DNA from: Candidatus Melainabacteria bacterium
GTDB lineage: Bacteria; Cyanobacteriota; Vampirovibrionia; 2-02-FULL-35-15
DNA: 64,000 nucleotides
Direction: 5' to 3'
Assembly: GCA_016193285.1 (NCBI GenBank)
Contig: JACPSL010000006.1
Span: forward strand, 1-64,000
This document shows positions 7,601 to 22,760 of this stretch, piece after piece. The notes under the pieces are model-generated. The model was not told the DNA's origin, did no database searches, and was given only the letters and a program-made list of their open reading frames with translations. A program made the translations under genes and the position numbers. Positions within the stretch are counted from its first letter, which is position 1, and every line of letters starts with the position of its first letter.

Positions 7601-10495
7601 ATGCTCAACTTATTAGAAAAACTCTTTGGTGAAAATAATGAAGCTAAGTTAAAAGCTATTCAACCTATTGTTGAAAGAATAAATAGCTTAGAAGAAGAAT
7701 TTCTTAAGCTTACAGATAATGAGCTAAAAGCAAAAACCTTTTACTTTAAAACCTTAATAGAAAATAAAATCAAAACTATTGAAGATAAGCCTCTACTACC
7801 TGAAGATGCTCCCAAAATCCCAGGAATTATAAGAAATACTAAAGATAAAGCTACGTATGAAATTCTAGATCAAATTTTACCTGAAGCATTTGCAACAGTT
7901 CGTGAAGTTTCAAAAAGAACTTTAAGTATGAGACATTTTGATGTTCAGTTAATTGGTGGAATAGTTTTACATCAAGGAAAAATTGCAGAGATGAAAACAG
8001 GAGAAGGAAAAACACTAGTTGCTACATTACCTGTTTACTTAAATGCTCTAACAGGAAGAGGGGTTCATATTGTAACAGTAAATGATTACCTTGCAAAACG
8101 TGATGCTGAGTGGATGGGTAAAATCTATAGATTTCTTGGAATGGATGTAGGCTTAGTAATTCCACATCAAAAAAAAGCAGAAAAATATCATGCTTATAGA
8201 GCAGATATTACTTATGGAACAAATAACGAGTATGGTTTTGATTATTTAAGAGATAACATGGAAACAAGCTTAAAAGGTTGTACTCAAAGAGAGTATTTTT
8301 ATGCCCTTGTTGATGAGGTTGATAGCATTCTTATAGATGAAGCTAGGACACCTTTAATTATTTCAGGTATGCCTGCAGAAGGACAAAGAGAAATTTATAT
8401 TGTAATGTCTAAGCTCTCTTGTAGATTAAAAAAAGGTAAAGATAAAGACGATCAAAATTGTGATTATTGGGTAGATGAAAAAGCAAGAAATGTTGTTTTG
8501 ACTGATTGTGGAATTAAAACTGCTGAAGAACTTTTAAACATAGATGATTTATGGGACATAAGAGGAAATCTAGCACATCATTTACTTCAAGCATTAAAAG
8601 CAAAAGAGTTATTTAAAAAGGATACAGATTATGTAATCAAACCAAATCCTGAATCAAACAATAAACTTGAGGTAGTTATTGTAGATGAATTTACTGGGAG
8701 ATTAATGATGGGTAGAAGGTGGAGCGATGGCTTACACCAAGCTATTGAAGCTAAAGAAAATGTACCAATTCAAGAAGAAACTCTTACACTTGCTACTATA
8801 ACTTTTCAAAATTATTTTAGACTATATCCAAAATTAGCAGGCATGACAGGAACTGCATATACAGAAAAAGATGAGTTTAGAAAAATATATAACCTGGATG
8901 TTGTTTGTATACCTACAAACAAAAAAAATATCCGCGAAGATTATGATGATCAGGTTTACAGGACAGAGAAATATAAATTTTACTCGGTTATAGAAGAGAT
9001 TGTAAAAACTCATTTAACTGGAAGACCAATACTTGTAGGAACTGTAAGTATTGAAAAATCTGAATTGATTTCTGAGCTATTATCAAAGCCACAAATGATG
9101 ACAAAACTAATGCAAGAAAAAGCTAACCGAGTAATAAAAACATTAAAAGAAAAAAAAATTGAAAATGAAAACACAGGCAAGCTTTTAAAACTTTTAGACA
9201 GACCAGGAAATTTAAAATGTAGTGAACTTAGTCCTATATTAAAAGAATTAAAATCTAACTACCAAGATAATGAATTTGAATATCTGTTAGACAAGCTTGA
9301 ATCACTAGTTGAAGTAGTTGAAGCTATTAGAACTAAGATTCCACACAATATATTAAATGCAAAAAACCATGAAAAGGAAGCGTATATAGTAGCTCAAGCT
9401 GGAAGGTTTGGAGCAATTACAATTGCTACAAATATGGCTGGTCGTGGTACAGATATTATTTTAGGCGGTAATCCAGAATACTTAACAAAAGAAGCTATCT
9501 CTAAGCTAAAACTATCACAAGAAAGTCAAGAGAAATGGAATGAGTTTTATGAAAAATTTAAACAAGAATGTGATGAAGAACATAAAAAAGTTGTTGAACT
9601 TGGAGGATTACATATAGTTGGTACTGAAAGGCATGAATCAAGAAGAATAGATAATCAGCTTAGAGGACGTGCTGCAAGACAAGGAGATCCTGGATCAACA
9701 AAATTCTTTTTATCTCTTGAAGATAATTTAATGAGAATTTTTGGTGGGGACAAGATATCAAACATTATGTCATTTTTAAAAGCAGAAGAAGACATGCCAA
9801 TTGAAGCAAAAATGGTAACAGGTGCAATTGAAAATGCTCAGAAAAGAGTAGAAGCACATAACTTTGACATTAGAAAACATGTTTTACAATACGACGATGT
9901 AATGAATATTCAGCGTGAAGTAATTTACAGAGAAAGAAGAAAAATATTAGAAGGAAGTGATATTAGTACATCAATTGTAGAAATTATAAAAAATCATGTG
10001 GAGTCAACATTATATACTCACATTAATCCTGAAACGCCACAGGAATCATGGTTAGATGAAGCATTGCCTAATTTACATAAAACGCTTGCTGGAGACATCC
10101 CAATATTAACTTCAATTCTAAGACTTGAAGATTTACAAAATAAAGGATTTGAAGAAATAAAAGAAAACTTACTTGAAGCAGCAGAAAATTCATATCTACA
10201 AAAGGTTGAACAATTTGGAAAAGAAAACATTAAAGAAATTGAAAGACAAATAATGCTTCATGTAATAGACAACAAATGGGTAGAACACTTACACAATATG
10301 GATGCACTTAGAGAAGGAATTCATCTTAGAGGTTATGGGCAAAAAGATCCATTAATGGAATACAAAAGAGAAGCATTTGATATGTTTGAACAACTATTAC
10401 TTGATATAAAAAGAGAAACTATAATTTTACTTATGCATGCACAAGTAGAATCAGCTGAAAATTTAGAAAAAGCTGAAGAAGAAGTTGAGGTTTGA
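7601..10495 (+). CDS. secA: preprotein translocase ATPase SecA with an 83-residue NBD2 insertion
   Basis: A 964-residue SecA motor that drives proteins through SecYEG. Walker A is MKTGEGKT, the DEAD-type box is DEVDSILIDEARTPLI, and AGMTGTA, TNMAGRGTDI and QLRGRAARQGDPG follow. Between SIEKSELISELLSK and IPHNILNAKNHE, normally about four residues apart, sit 83 residues (about 497-579, bases 9089-9337), largely charged helix. The C-terminus ends KAEEEVEV without the Cys-rich zinc tail that binds SecB in many Proteobacteria. The gene appears monocistronic. Confidence 0.97.
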   Translation: MLNLLEKLFGENNEAKLKAIQPIVERINSLEEEFLKLTDNELKAKTFYFKTLIENKIKTIEDKPLLPEDAPKIPGIIRNTKDKATYEILDQILPEAFATVREVSKRTLSMRHFDVQLIGGIVLHQGKIAEMKTGEGKTLVATLPVYLNALTGRGVHIVTVNDYLAKRDAEWMGKIYRFLGMDVGLVIPHQKKAEKYHAYRADITYGTNNEYGFDYLRDNMETSLKGCTQREYFYALVDEVDSILIDEARTPLIISGMPAEGQREIYIVMSKLSCRLKKGKDKDDQNCDYWVDEKARNVVLTDCGIKTAEELLNIDDLWDIRGNLAHHLLQALKAKELFKKDTDYVIKPNPESNNKLEVVIVDEFTGRLMMGRRWSDGLHQAIEAKENVPIQEETLTLATITFQNYFRLYPKLAGMTGTAYTEKDEFRKIYNLDVVCIPTNKKNIREDYDDQVYRTEKYKFYSVIEEIVKTHLTGRPILVGTVSIEKSELISELLSKPQMMTKLMQEKANRVIKTLKEKKIENENTGKLLKLLDRPGNLKCSELSPILKELKSNYQDNEFEYLLDKLESLVEVVEAIRTKIPHNILNAKNHEKEAYIVAQAGRFGAITIATNMAGRGTDIILGGNPEYLTKEAISKLKLSQESQEKWNEFYEKFKQECDEEHKKVVELGGLHIVGTERHESRRIDNQLRGRAARQGDPGSTKFFLSLEDNLMRIFGGDKISNIMSFLKAEEDMPIEAKMVTGAIENAQKRVEAHNFDIRKHVLQYDDVMNIQREVIYRERRKILEGSDISTSIVEIIKNHVESTLYTHINPETPQESWLDEALPNLHKTLAGDIPILTSILRLEDLQNKGFEEIKENLLEAAENSYLQKVEQFGKENIKEIERQIMLHVIDNKWVEHLHNMDALREGIHLRGYGQKDPLMEYKREAFDMFEQLLLDIKRETIILLMHAQVESAENLEKAEEEVEV

Positions 10496-16351: not shown

Positions 16352-17332
16352 ATGTACATTTTAGGGATTGAGACAAGTTGTGATGAAACTGCAGTAGCTA
16401 TTGTTCAAGATGGCAAGAGAGTTATTGTAAACAATGTTATTTCTCAAATAGAACTTCATAAAGAATTTGGTGGCGTAAAACCAAGTGTAGCAAAGTTTGC
16501 TCACCAAGAAGTTATTGATGGGTTGATTGATAAAACCTTATCAGATGCAAGATTTCAAATGAGTAACATTAATGCAATTGCAGTAACACTTGGACCAGGT
16601 TTAATAATTTCACTTTTAGTTGGATTTAAAAAAGCAAAAGAACTTGCTCTAAAATATAATAAAAAATTAATTGGAGTAAATCATTTATTTGGACATATTT
16701 GTTCAAACTATTTAGAATCAGATCTTGAGCCACCATTTGTGTGCTTACTGGCTAGTGGTGGTCACACACAAATAATTAATGTAAAAACTTATACTGATTA
16801 CGAAATTCTTGGTACAACATTAGATGATGCTTGTGGAGAGGCTTTTGACAAGGTTGGAAGACTACTTGGATTACCATATCCAGGAGGACCACATTTAGAA
16901 AAATTAGCTAAAGATGGTAATCCAAATACTTATTTACTTCCTGAAGCAAAAGTCAATCCTTATGATTTTAGTTTTAGCGGACTAAAGACAGCTGTTTTAA
17001 GATTAGTACAAAAACTTCCTTCTGATTTTAACAAAGCAGATCTTGCAGCAAGCTTTCAAGAAAATGTAACTAATACACTTGTAAAAAAGATAGTACTTTG
17101 TGCAAATAATCTTGGTATAAATAAAATTGTAATTGCAGGTGGAGTTTCAGCAAATAAAACTCTAAGAAAAAAGCTCTCAGCTCTTAGCTCTCAGCTCTCA
17201 TTCTCCCTCTATATGCCAGATTTAAGATATTGTACTGACAATGCTGCAATGATTGCTAGTGCGGGATATTTCTTAAGAAATGTTCAACAAGACATAGAAA
17301 TGCTGGATGTTTTTGCAAGGTCACCCAATTAA
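16352..17332 (+). CDS. tsaD: tRNA threonylcarbamoyladenosine biosynthesis protein TsaD
   Basis: A TsaD/Kae1 enzyme that completes t6A37 in tRNA. The start at 16352 (MYILGIETSCDETAVAIV) is the family N-terminus; the frame extends 20 unlikely residues upstream. The metal-binding pair lies in NHLFGHICSNYL, followed by ASGGHTQI, DACGEAFDKVGRLLGL and AGGVSANKTLRKKL. Directly after ANKTLRKK an AGCTCTC heptamer array encodes LSALSSQLSFS, a low-complexity linker at a surface position. The 3' end overlaps convergent miaA by 77 bp. Confidence 0.96.
   Translation: MYILGIETSCDETAVAIVQDGKRVIVNNVISQIELHKEFGGVKPSVAKFAHQEVIDGLIDKTLSDARFQMSNINAIAVTLGPGLIISLLVGFKKAKELALKYNKKLIGVNHLFGHICSNYLESDLEPPFVCLLASGGHTQIINVKTYTDYEILGTTLDDACGEAFDKVGRLLGLPYPGGPHLEKLAKDGNPNTYLLPEAKVNPYDFSFSGLKTAVLRLVQKLPSDFNKADLAASFQENVTNTLVKKIVLCANNLGINKIVIAGGVSANKTLRKKLSALSSQLSFSLYMPDLRYCTDNAAMIASAGYFLRNVQQDIEMLDVFARSPN
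17172..17199 (+). repeat. AGCTCTC heptamer array inside tsaD
   Basis: Four consecutive 7-bp units (AGCTCTC, AGCTCTT, AGCTCTC, AGCTCTC) read in frame as part of the peptide LSALSSQLS. The same unit and the same peptide occur near the 3' end of priA (60376-60410), and a sister unit AGCACTC fills priA at 61834-61899. Both hosts carry the unit in the same orientation relative to coding. Confidence 0.85.
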
Positions 17333-18164
17333 TTTTTTTATTTGCTTTAAACCAAGTCATTTGTCTTTTTGCAAACTGTCTTGTATGGAGAATAATTTTT
17401 TCAATCATTGTTTCTTTGTTTATTCTGTTTTTTAAAAAATCAATTGCTTCAGAGTAACCTATAGTTCTTTTAAAAAGATTTAGCTCTCCATACTTATCTA
17501 AGAGACTTTTTACTTCATCTATAAAACCATTATTGCAAAATAATTCAGTACGATCTTTAATTTTTTCAATATGGTCTTCTTTGCTTTCATATCTTAAACC
17601 AATCCAAATTACATTAAAGGGTATTTCTCTGACTGACTTTAATTTTGAGAAAAGTTTGTTGGTTTTATATATAACTTCAAGTGCTCTTATTGTTCTAAAG
17701 TTATCATTTTTGTGAATTATTTCAGTAGCCTTTGGATCGAGTTCTGTAAGCCTCTTGTAAAGCTCTTCTTGTGTATATTCTTTTAACTGTCTTCTAAAAT
17801 TTAAATCTGGCTTTACTTCTGGAATTGAAAGACCTAAGAGCACAGAATTTAAATAAAGTCCTGTCCCACCAACAAAAAGAGGGATTTTTCCACATGAAAA
17901 AATATCCTGAATTAATTTTTCTGTTTCTTTTTTATATAGTCCTACTGAATAATCAAAATCTGGCTCAGTAATATCTATCATGTGATGAGGAATTTCTTTT
18001 CTTTCTTCAAGTGTTGGTTTTGAGGTCCCAATATCCATACCTTTGTATATAAGTCTGGAATCAGCAGAAATAATTTCAAACGGATATTTTTTTGTAAGCT
18101 CAATTGCAATTTTTGATTTATAAGTACAGGTAGGTCCTACTAATGTACATATTGTCTCTTTCAT
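17256..18164 (-). CDS. miaA: tRNA dimethylallyltransferase
   Basis: A 302-residue prenyltransferase that adds dimethylallyl to A37. P-loop GPTCTYKSKIAIEL (an unusual version of GPTAxGKT/S), then ISADSRLIYKGMDIGTSKP, ITEPDFDYSVGLYKKE, FVGGTGLYLNSVLLG and the C-terminal TRQFAKRQMTWFK. The start at 18164 has a GAAAGG ribosome-binding site upstream, part of which is the MITE target duplication CCTTTCTT. Its last 25 codons are antisense to the end of tsaD, a long convergent overlap. Confidence 0.95.
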   Translation of the reverse strand: MKETICTLVGPTCTYKSKIAIELTKKYPFEIISADSRLIYKGMDIGTSKPTLEERKEIPHHMIDITEPDFDYSVGLYKKETEKLIQDIFSCGKIPLFVGGTGLYLNSVLLGLSIPEVKPDLNFRRQLKEYTQEELYKRLTELDPKATEIIHKNDNFRTIRALEVIYKTNKLFSKLKSVREIPFNVIWIGLRYESKEDHIEKIKDRTELFCNNGFIDEVKSLLDKYGELNLFKRTIGYSEAIDFLKNRINKETMIEKIILHTRQFAKRQMTWFKANKKINWVTLQKHPAFLCLVEHFLRNIPH

Positions 18165-18177
18165 TCATACCTTTCTT

Positions 18178-18334
18178 GTAACTACTCAGGTGGCTCTGCG
18201 GTGACATAGCTCCTCGAGCCACCCTTCCATAGACCGCTCAGCTTGCCCAAATGAATTGGATCAAGCCTTGCTTTATTAGATAGCATAATTCCGTGAAGGA
18301 TAACCTAGGATAAATTAACATGCTGAGTAGTTAC
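18178..18334. mobile_element. 157-bp MITE, IS66-like (GTAA ends, 8-bp target duplication)
   Basis: Perfect 12-bp terminal inverted repeats GTAACTACTCAG (18178-18189) and CTGAGTAGTTAC (18323-18334) bound a noncoding 157-bp segment. An exact 8-bp direct repeat CCTTTCTT flanks it at 18170-18177 and 18335-18342. Ends starting 5'-GTAA with 8-bp duplications are the known hallmark of the IS66 family. The interior is richer in G+C than the surroundings and can fold (GGTGGCTC/GAGCCACC; GCTTGCCCAA/TTGGATCAAGC). No transposase is present, so it must have been moved in trans. Confidence 0.88.
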
Positions 18335-18349
18335 CCTTTCTTAAACCTA

Positions 18350-18420
18350 GCGGAAGACGGGGCTCGAACCCGCGACATTCTCCTTGGCAAGGAGACATTC
18401 TACCACTGAATTACTTCCGC
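18350..18420 (-). tRNA. tRNA-Gly (GCC), copy 1
   Basis: The minus strand folds into a 71-nt cloverleaf: acceptor GCGGAAG/CTTCCGC, anticodon arm CTCCTTGCCAAGGAG with anticodon GCC, T arm CGCGGGTTCGAGCCCCG. The copy at 22645-22715 is identical over the full gene plus four following bases. The two copies, in the same orientation, bound the accessory island. CCA is not encoded. Confidence 0.95.
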
Positions 18421-18546
18421 AAAATAGGATTGAACTTTTGTAATTACTAATCACTATTTTCTTCGTTTTCTTCGTAAGCCTTTCAACCTTTAATCATAAC
18501 TAATTTTATTTATGTTGTATATGCTAGTAATTAAAAAGGGTTATAA

Positions 18547-22585: not shown

Positions 22586-22644
22586 CCTTATTTAGAAGCA
22601 CAATAAATTGCGACACAAATTAAAATCAAAAGTCTTAAAAAAAA

Positions 22645-22715
22645 GCGGAAGACGGGGCTCGAACCCGCGACATTCTCCTTGGCAAGGAGACATTCTACCA
22701 CTGAATTACTTCCGC
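22645..22715 (-). tRNA. tRNA-Gly (GCC), copy 2
   Basis: Identical in all 71 bases to the copy at 18350-18420, same orientation, anticodon GCC. With the integrase remnant just past its 3' end, this looks like the attachment site of an integrative element, and the other copy like the far boundary. Complete duplication of the gene, not only its 3' part, is notable. Confidence 0.95.
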
Positions 22716-22760
22716 AAAAGGGAGAAATGATATGTTAAATTTAACATATCATTTAGTACC

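Follow-up and report, generated by a model that had tools for sequence, protein, structure and literature searches.

Bacterial miniature inverted-repeat transposable elements (MITEs) such as MITEAba12 and MITECca01 are short, gene-less sequences with inverted ends that occur in multiple copies (PMC6382973, PMC9769881). The active insertion sequence ISDge4, which belongs to the ISBst12 group of the IS66 family, has the ends GTGACTACTCAGCA and GTAACTGCTCAGCA, an 8-bp direct repeat and a 449-aa transposase (PMC12898284). Dispersed palindromic hairpin modules, often located beside tRNA genes and at gene ends, are described as REP-like repeats and as mitochondrial double-hairpin elements (PMC2800124). 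A brief literature search on IS66 MITEs found none.

We analysed a window, meaning the whole stretch of 64,000 nucleotides, from a groundwater Melainabacterium, a lineage known mainly from metagenomes. A 157-bp element beside miaA resembles the two MITEs in being short, gene-less and multicopy with inverted ends, but its ends are of the IS66 type and, in place of leftover IS sequence, it contains a two-hairpin module that is conserved, shows covariation and varies from genus to genus. Its ends are near-identical to those of ISDge4 and it shares the 8-bp duplication, whereas it lacks any transposase. The module is palindromic and dispersed like the REP-like and mitochondrial elements, but it is bacterial, is packaged in IS66-type ends with 8-bp duplications and, in relatives, is flanked by duplicated gene 3' ends. 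The element thus points to IS66-type MITEs that carry a conserved, exchangeable palindromic module as their interior instead of transposase remnants. This gene-end setting of the module is more surprising than the MITE itself.

The element beside miaA and its copies

An earlier note, made from the window alone, described perfect 12-bp inverted ends and exact 8-bp direct repeats around a 157-bp unit, and this observation is confirmed. A repeat search of the window recovered both arms, 12 nt long and 100% complementary, with CCTTTCTT on either side. The features of the locus are as follows.

17256..18164, minus strand: miaA (tRNA dimethylallyltransferase), downstream neighbour (Pfam IPPT, 250 bits)
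18170..18177, no strand: left 8-bp target-site duplication, CCTTTCTT (repeat search)
18178..18334, no strand: very probable IS66-type non-autonomous element (MITE), 157 bp, without a transposase ORF (own copies; ends match an IS66 element and published ISDge4)
18178..18189, plus strand: left terminal inverted repeat, GTAACTACTCAG, followed by GT (repeat search)
18189..18223, plus strand: hairpin 1, GGTGGCTC / GAGCCACC enclosing the conserved loop TGCGGTGACATAGCTCCTC (repeat search, folding, stem covariation)
18241..18266, plus strand: hairpin 2, GCTTG-C-CCAA / TTGG-AT-CAAGC (covaries in relatives)
18323..18334, minus strand: right terminal inverted repeat, read on the minus strand as GTAACTACTCAGCATG (repeat search)
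18335..18342, no strand: right 8-bp target-site duplication, CCTTTCTT (repeat search)
18349..18420, minus strand: tRNA-Gly (GCC), upstream neighbour (tRNA search)

The element landed 14 bp from the miaA start, as the note had it, and the duplication does take in the likely ribosome-binding sequence: read on the minus strand, as AAGAAAGG, it is Shine-Dalgarno-like and lies 5 nt from the start codon (ATG) of miaA. Because this sequence lies inside the duplication, the insertion retained the likely ribosome-binding sequence beside miaA. The whole unit folds better than shuffled sequences on both strands (z -3.5 on the plus and -4.9 on the minus strand), and since the minus strand folds well, a read-through tRNA-Gly–miaA transcript would carry a structured leader. 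A consensus scan found no promoter-like or terminator-like sites in or near the element. With the Shine-Dalgarno-like sequence kept in the duplication, the insertion between tRNA-Gly and miaA is probably close to neutral, or else provides miaA with a structured leader.

The genome that holds the window (assembly of 1.81 Mb in 39 contigs, 96% complete) contains seven copies of the element by sequence search, six full-length and one internally deleted; the search returned eight rows, the last two being the halves of the deleted copy. Flanking sequences differ at every locus, and at two of the loci the copy overlaps an ORF at its 3' end. Comparison of the 8-bp flanks, with the two ends kept fixed, gave 8/8 matching positions for the window copy and 7/8 for five others, while one copy (L005, at C18:44729) has no duplication; lengths of 5, 6, 7, 9 and 10 bp did not fit the own-genome copies. 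The expectation that several copies would share the ends and differ in their 8-bp duplications was therefore borne out by seven copies, six of them with at most one mismatch. In relatives from other genera, units of 139-168 bp have ends related to these and are likewise flanked by 8-bp duplications: three genera supply the copies with 8/8 (L073, L077, L089, L093 and L102) and 7/8 (L113), and L058 and L078 reach 6/8. Because the same ends and duplications of exactly 8 bp recur at unrelated loci, the pattern in the window is not due to chance, and a single copy conserved at the same locus in relatives, which would have spoken for a structured RNA, is not what we observed. The note's proposal of recent movement holds in part: the window copy is the sole one of the seven in which both ends and the duplication are perfect, but the interiors of the other full-length copies in the genome share no more than 83-94% identity with its own, so that "recent" is to be taken as relative only. 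Plasmid, phage and IMG/VR collections gave no match to the element.

Terminal repeats and the transposase family

No IS66 transposase (PF03050) was detected in the 96% complete genome, and no autonomous partner with the same ends was present in its 39 contigs. Such a partner would add support to the MITE reading but is not needed for it, as autonomous partners are often lost, and multicopy insertion sequences are often missing from metagenome-assembled genomes (MAGs). Across the taxonomic family we found one full-length IS66 transposase only, whose surroundings lack these ends, and no pairs of such ends 1-3 kb apart. We rejected a source within this genome or its family, where no IS66 element with these ends was found.

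A matching element is found in G037, a genome from another family of the same class. On contig C27, a 1460-bp element with the ends GTAACTACTCAGGT and GTAACTACTCATGT surrounds a 444-aa single-ORF IS66 transposase that exceeds the NCBIfam IS66 cut-off (NF033517, 272 vs 180 bits). The window ends, which read GTAACTACTCAGGT and GTAACTACTCAGCA inward, agree with them at 14/14 and 13/14 bases; no matching 8-bp duplication flanks the G037 element. One window end and one published ISDge4 end have 13 of 14 bases in common (PMC12898284). The full-length IS66 with matching ends that the earlier note had looked to for support thus exists in a relative of the same class, but not in the own genome.

Two further genomes show the same ends in fragmentary surroundings. 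In G023, an exact end lies ~110 bp from an IS66 fragment (contig C52), and five other contigs of G023 and G018 run on for 60-90 bp beyond an exact copy of the end and then break off. Contigs ending just inside repeats are what multicopy elements do to assemblies. Other IS66 elements of the class have different ends, of the GTAAGCGTCC or GTAAACGTTCCA type, which confines the end match to the single-ORF group. Two elements with such other-type ends (L176 and L182) are flanked by exact 8-bp duplications, indicating that the end-finding works.

The element thus combines terminal inverted repeats of the group's type, an 8-bp duplication and dispersed copies without a transposase gene, as an IS66-family MITE does, and the note's assignment to IS66 is upheld. 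On the strength of the G037 and ISDge4 ends, we assign it with high confidence to the MITEs of the IS66 family, within the ISBst12-like single-transposase group. As the own genome has neither an IS66 transposase nor a full-length partner, we infer mobilisation in trans: an IS66-type transposase, now lost or absent from the assembly, would have recognised the GTAAyTACTCAG ends, cut the target 8 bp apart and inserted the 157-bp unit.

In two single-ORF IS66 elements (L205:2960-4419 and L204:1642 onward), a REP-like palindrome lies immediately inward of one end, as though it were part of the element's design.

The two-hairpin module and rival explanations

The interior of the element is a family-specific two-hairpin module of ~100 bp, not a shortened transposase gene or debris. 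The GC-rich interior with two hairpins that the note had described is present (18189-18223 and 18241-18266), and its stems covary. Sequences matching element positions 6-114, most of them with 75-88% identity, occur at ~40 sites across seven relatives from the same family. A covariance model detects the module in 10 of the 11 genomes of the family and in 0 of ~285 sampled elsewhere in the phylum, where the search used stricter filters than within the family, and the weakest family matches may be chance. Model matches below ~37 bits, none of which has flanking gene-end repeats, are probably chance or remnants. Exact matches to the loop in named records come almost all from Candidatus Melainabacteria MAGs.

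Stem 1 occurs as GGTGGCTC/GAGCCACC, GCTGGTTC/GAACCAGC, GCCGGTTC/GAACCGGC, GCTGAGCC/GGCTCAGC and other variants, and the loop enclosed by these arms, TGCGGTGACGTTGCTCCTC, is near-invariant. Among 22 different arm pairs, pairing is seen in 171 of 176 stem cells (shuffle mean 112, maximum 128), a count that is somewhat flattered by placing the stem-1 arms by best pairing. Compensatory changes are seen in 7 of 12 predicted pairs, mostly in stem 2. The stems are thus kept by compensatory changes, and RNA or folded single-stranded DNA fit equally. Rfam 15 has no match for the module or the element. One genus has many copies of a diverged version whose first hairpin is different, represented by 28 model matches in G005 (e.g. 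L119-L129). Both G007 and G002 have the module in the stretch separating tRNA-Gly from hslO (L134 at ~9943-10041; L135 on the minus strand, reverse complement 9225-9323).

Same-kind ends can also enclose a different cargo. In G010, two loci (L156 and L158) have such ends and 8-bp duplications around REP-like CATTGCGAGGA...GCAATCTC palindromes, and another family of the class has ~165-bp shells holding similar palindromes. IS66-type ends with REP-like CATTGCGAG cargo were located at L156:1388-1565, L158:1339-1481, L211:842-1005, L223:1042-1208 and L225:1813-1979; such shells span other genera and families of the class, and among these five only L156 and L158 have exact 8-bp duplications. In a tree of the module (support 0.98 and 0.83, ~100 sites), the own-genome copies cluster with end-less modules, apart from other end-bearing copies, and the right ends differ. 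Together, the tree grouping and the differing right ends suggest that IS66-type ends and module were probably combined more than once (at least twice).

Three other explanations of the element were weighed. The first takes the unit for a structured RNA, or for a cis-regulatory element acting on miaA or tRNA-Gly, that is conserved at the locus and has the inverted ends as its closing stem; this would account for the covariation of both hairpins across genera and for the better-than-shuffled fold. It is largely refuted by dispersal, as the copies are scattered over unrelated loci and their 8-bp duplications differ; moreover, Rfam holds no match and the module in G007 and G002 is at hslO rather than miaA, and we consider this explanation very unlikely. 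The palindromic nature of the module, its occurrence also without IS66 ends and the same-end shells with REP-like CATTGCGAGG / GCAATCTC palindromes in G010 and another family might instead suggest a REP-like repeat family moved by a RAYT/HUH enzyme, in which the IS66-like ends are coincidental. For the window copy, the clean 8-bp duplications that flank these ends leave little probability for this explanation, given that HUH transposition is not known to make any of this kind.

The transposase family itself could also be a different one that duplicates 8 bp, e.g. IS256, ISL3 or IS1595, since the own genome has no IS66 gene and the length of the duplication alone is not unique to IS66. Against this stands the agreement of the ends with the IS66 transposase element of the class and with published ISDge4 of the ISBst12 group (PMC12898284), which makes an origin outside IS66 highly improbable and argues for the IS66-family MITE.

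The module at duplicated gene 3' ends

At eleven loci in five relatives, the module, without IS66-type ends, has the intact 3' end of a gene on one side and a diverged duplicate of that end, 30-82 bp in length, on the other. The loci are as follows.

L148 (L097), L098, L151 (L083), L147 (L096), L149 (L101), L150 (L103)
L145 (L104), L146 (L114), L139 (L118), L153 (L119), L144 (L125)

The targets, named by reading of the sequences, are four tRNA genes, including tRNA-Phe, tRNA-Ser and tRNA-Thr, and protein genes, namely fusA, prfA, trpB, YjbQ-like, vanX-like dipeptidase and terminal-oxidase genes, the vanX-like gene being counted in two genomes. The flanking repeats align with scores of 47-119 at these loci, vs at most 25 in all other copies. 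At all eleven, the intact gene has a constant side and orientation relative to the module, which starts ~4-14 bp from the truncated copy of the gene end. In six of the seven protein cases the similarity starts within 4 bp of the stop codon.

In most protein genes, the differences between the two copies of the gene end are mainly synonymous (7/8 and 3/4 in the vanX-like genes, 5/5 in YjbQ-like, 3/3 in fusA and 9/14 in trpB), with low fractions in prfA (1/3) and the oxidase gene (1/3). The displaced trpB end of G007 stays in frame to its own stop, and it is 83% identical to trpB of G009 vs 78% to its own intact gene. From the mainly synonymous differences and the frame and stop kept by the displaced trpB, it seems that both copies were functional at the time of their divergence. 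A simple long target-site duplication does not fit such copies, and we rejected it on these grounds. A large integrative element with the module at one end was also rejected, as no indicative distant flank repeat was present in loci of 8-20 kb.

Integrative elements and some mitochondrial elements replace gene ends with foreign ones. The pattern at the gene ends would fit such a replacement. The module might then be a mobile entity of its own with two routes, travelling as cargo of IS66 ends or entering at gene 3' ends, where it would bring a foreign end that completes the gene and push the old end beyond the hairpins. We put this forward tentatively, as a reading that is somewhat more doubtful than probable. 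If confirmed, these findings would connect palindromic repeats and bacterial insertions that replace gene 3' ends with IS-driven MITEs.

The tRNA-Gly gene adjoining the module in G007 and G002 is the one present twice in the window. The two tRNA-Gly (GCC) copies there (18349-18424 and 22644-22719) are identical at 76/76 bases, and the 4.2 kb between them encode a Schlafen/AlbA_2 protein, an AbiEi-like ORF with no Pfam match and an AbiEii nucleotidyltransferase. This tRNA-Gly-flanked segment next to hslO is a small defence island.
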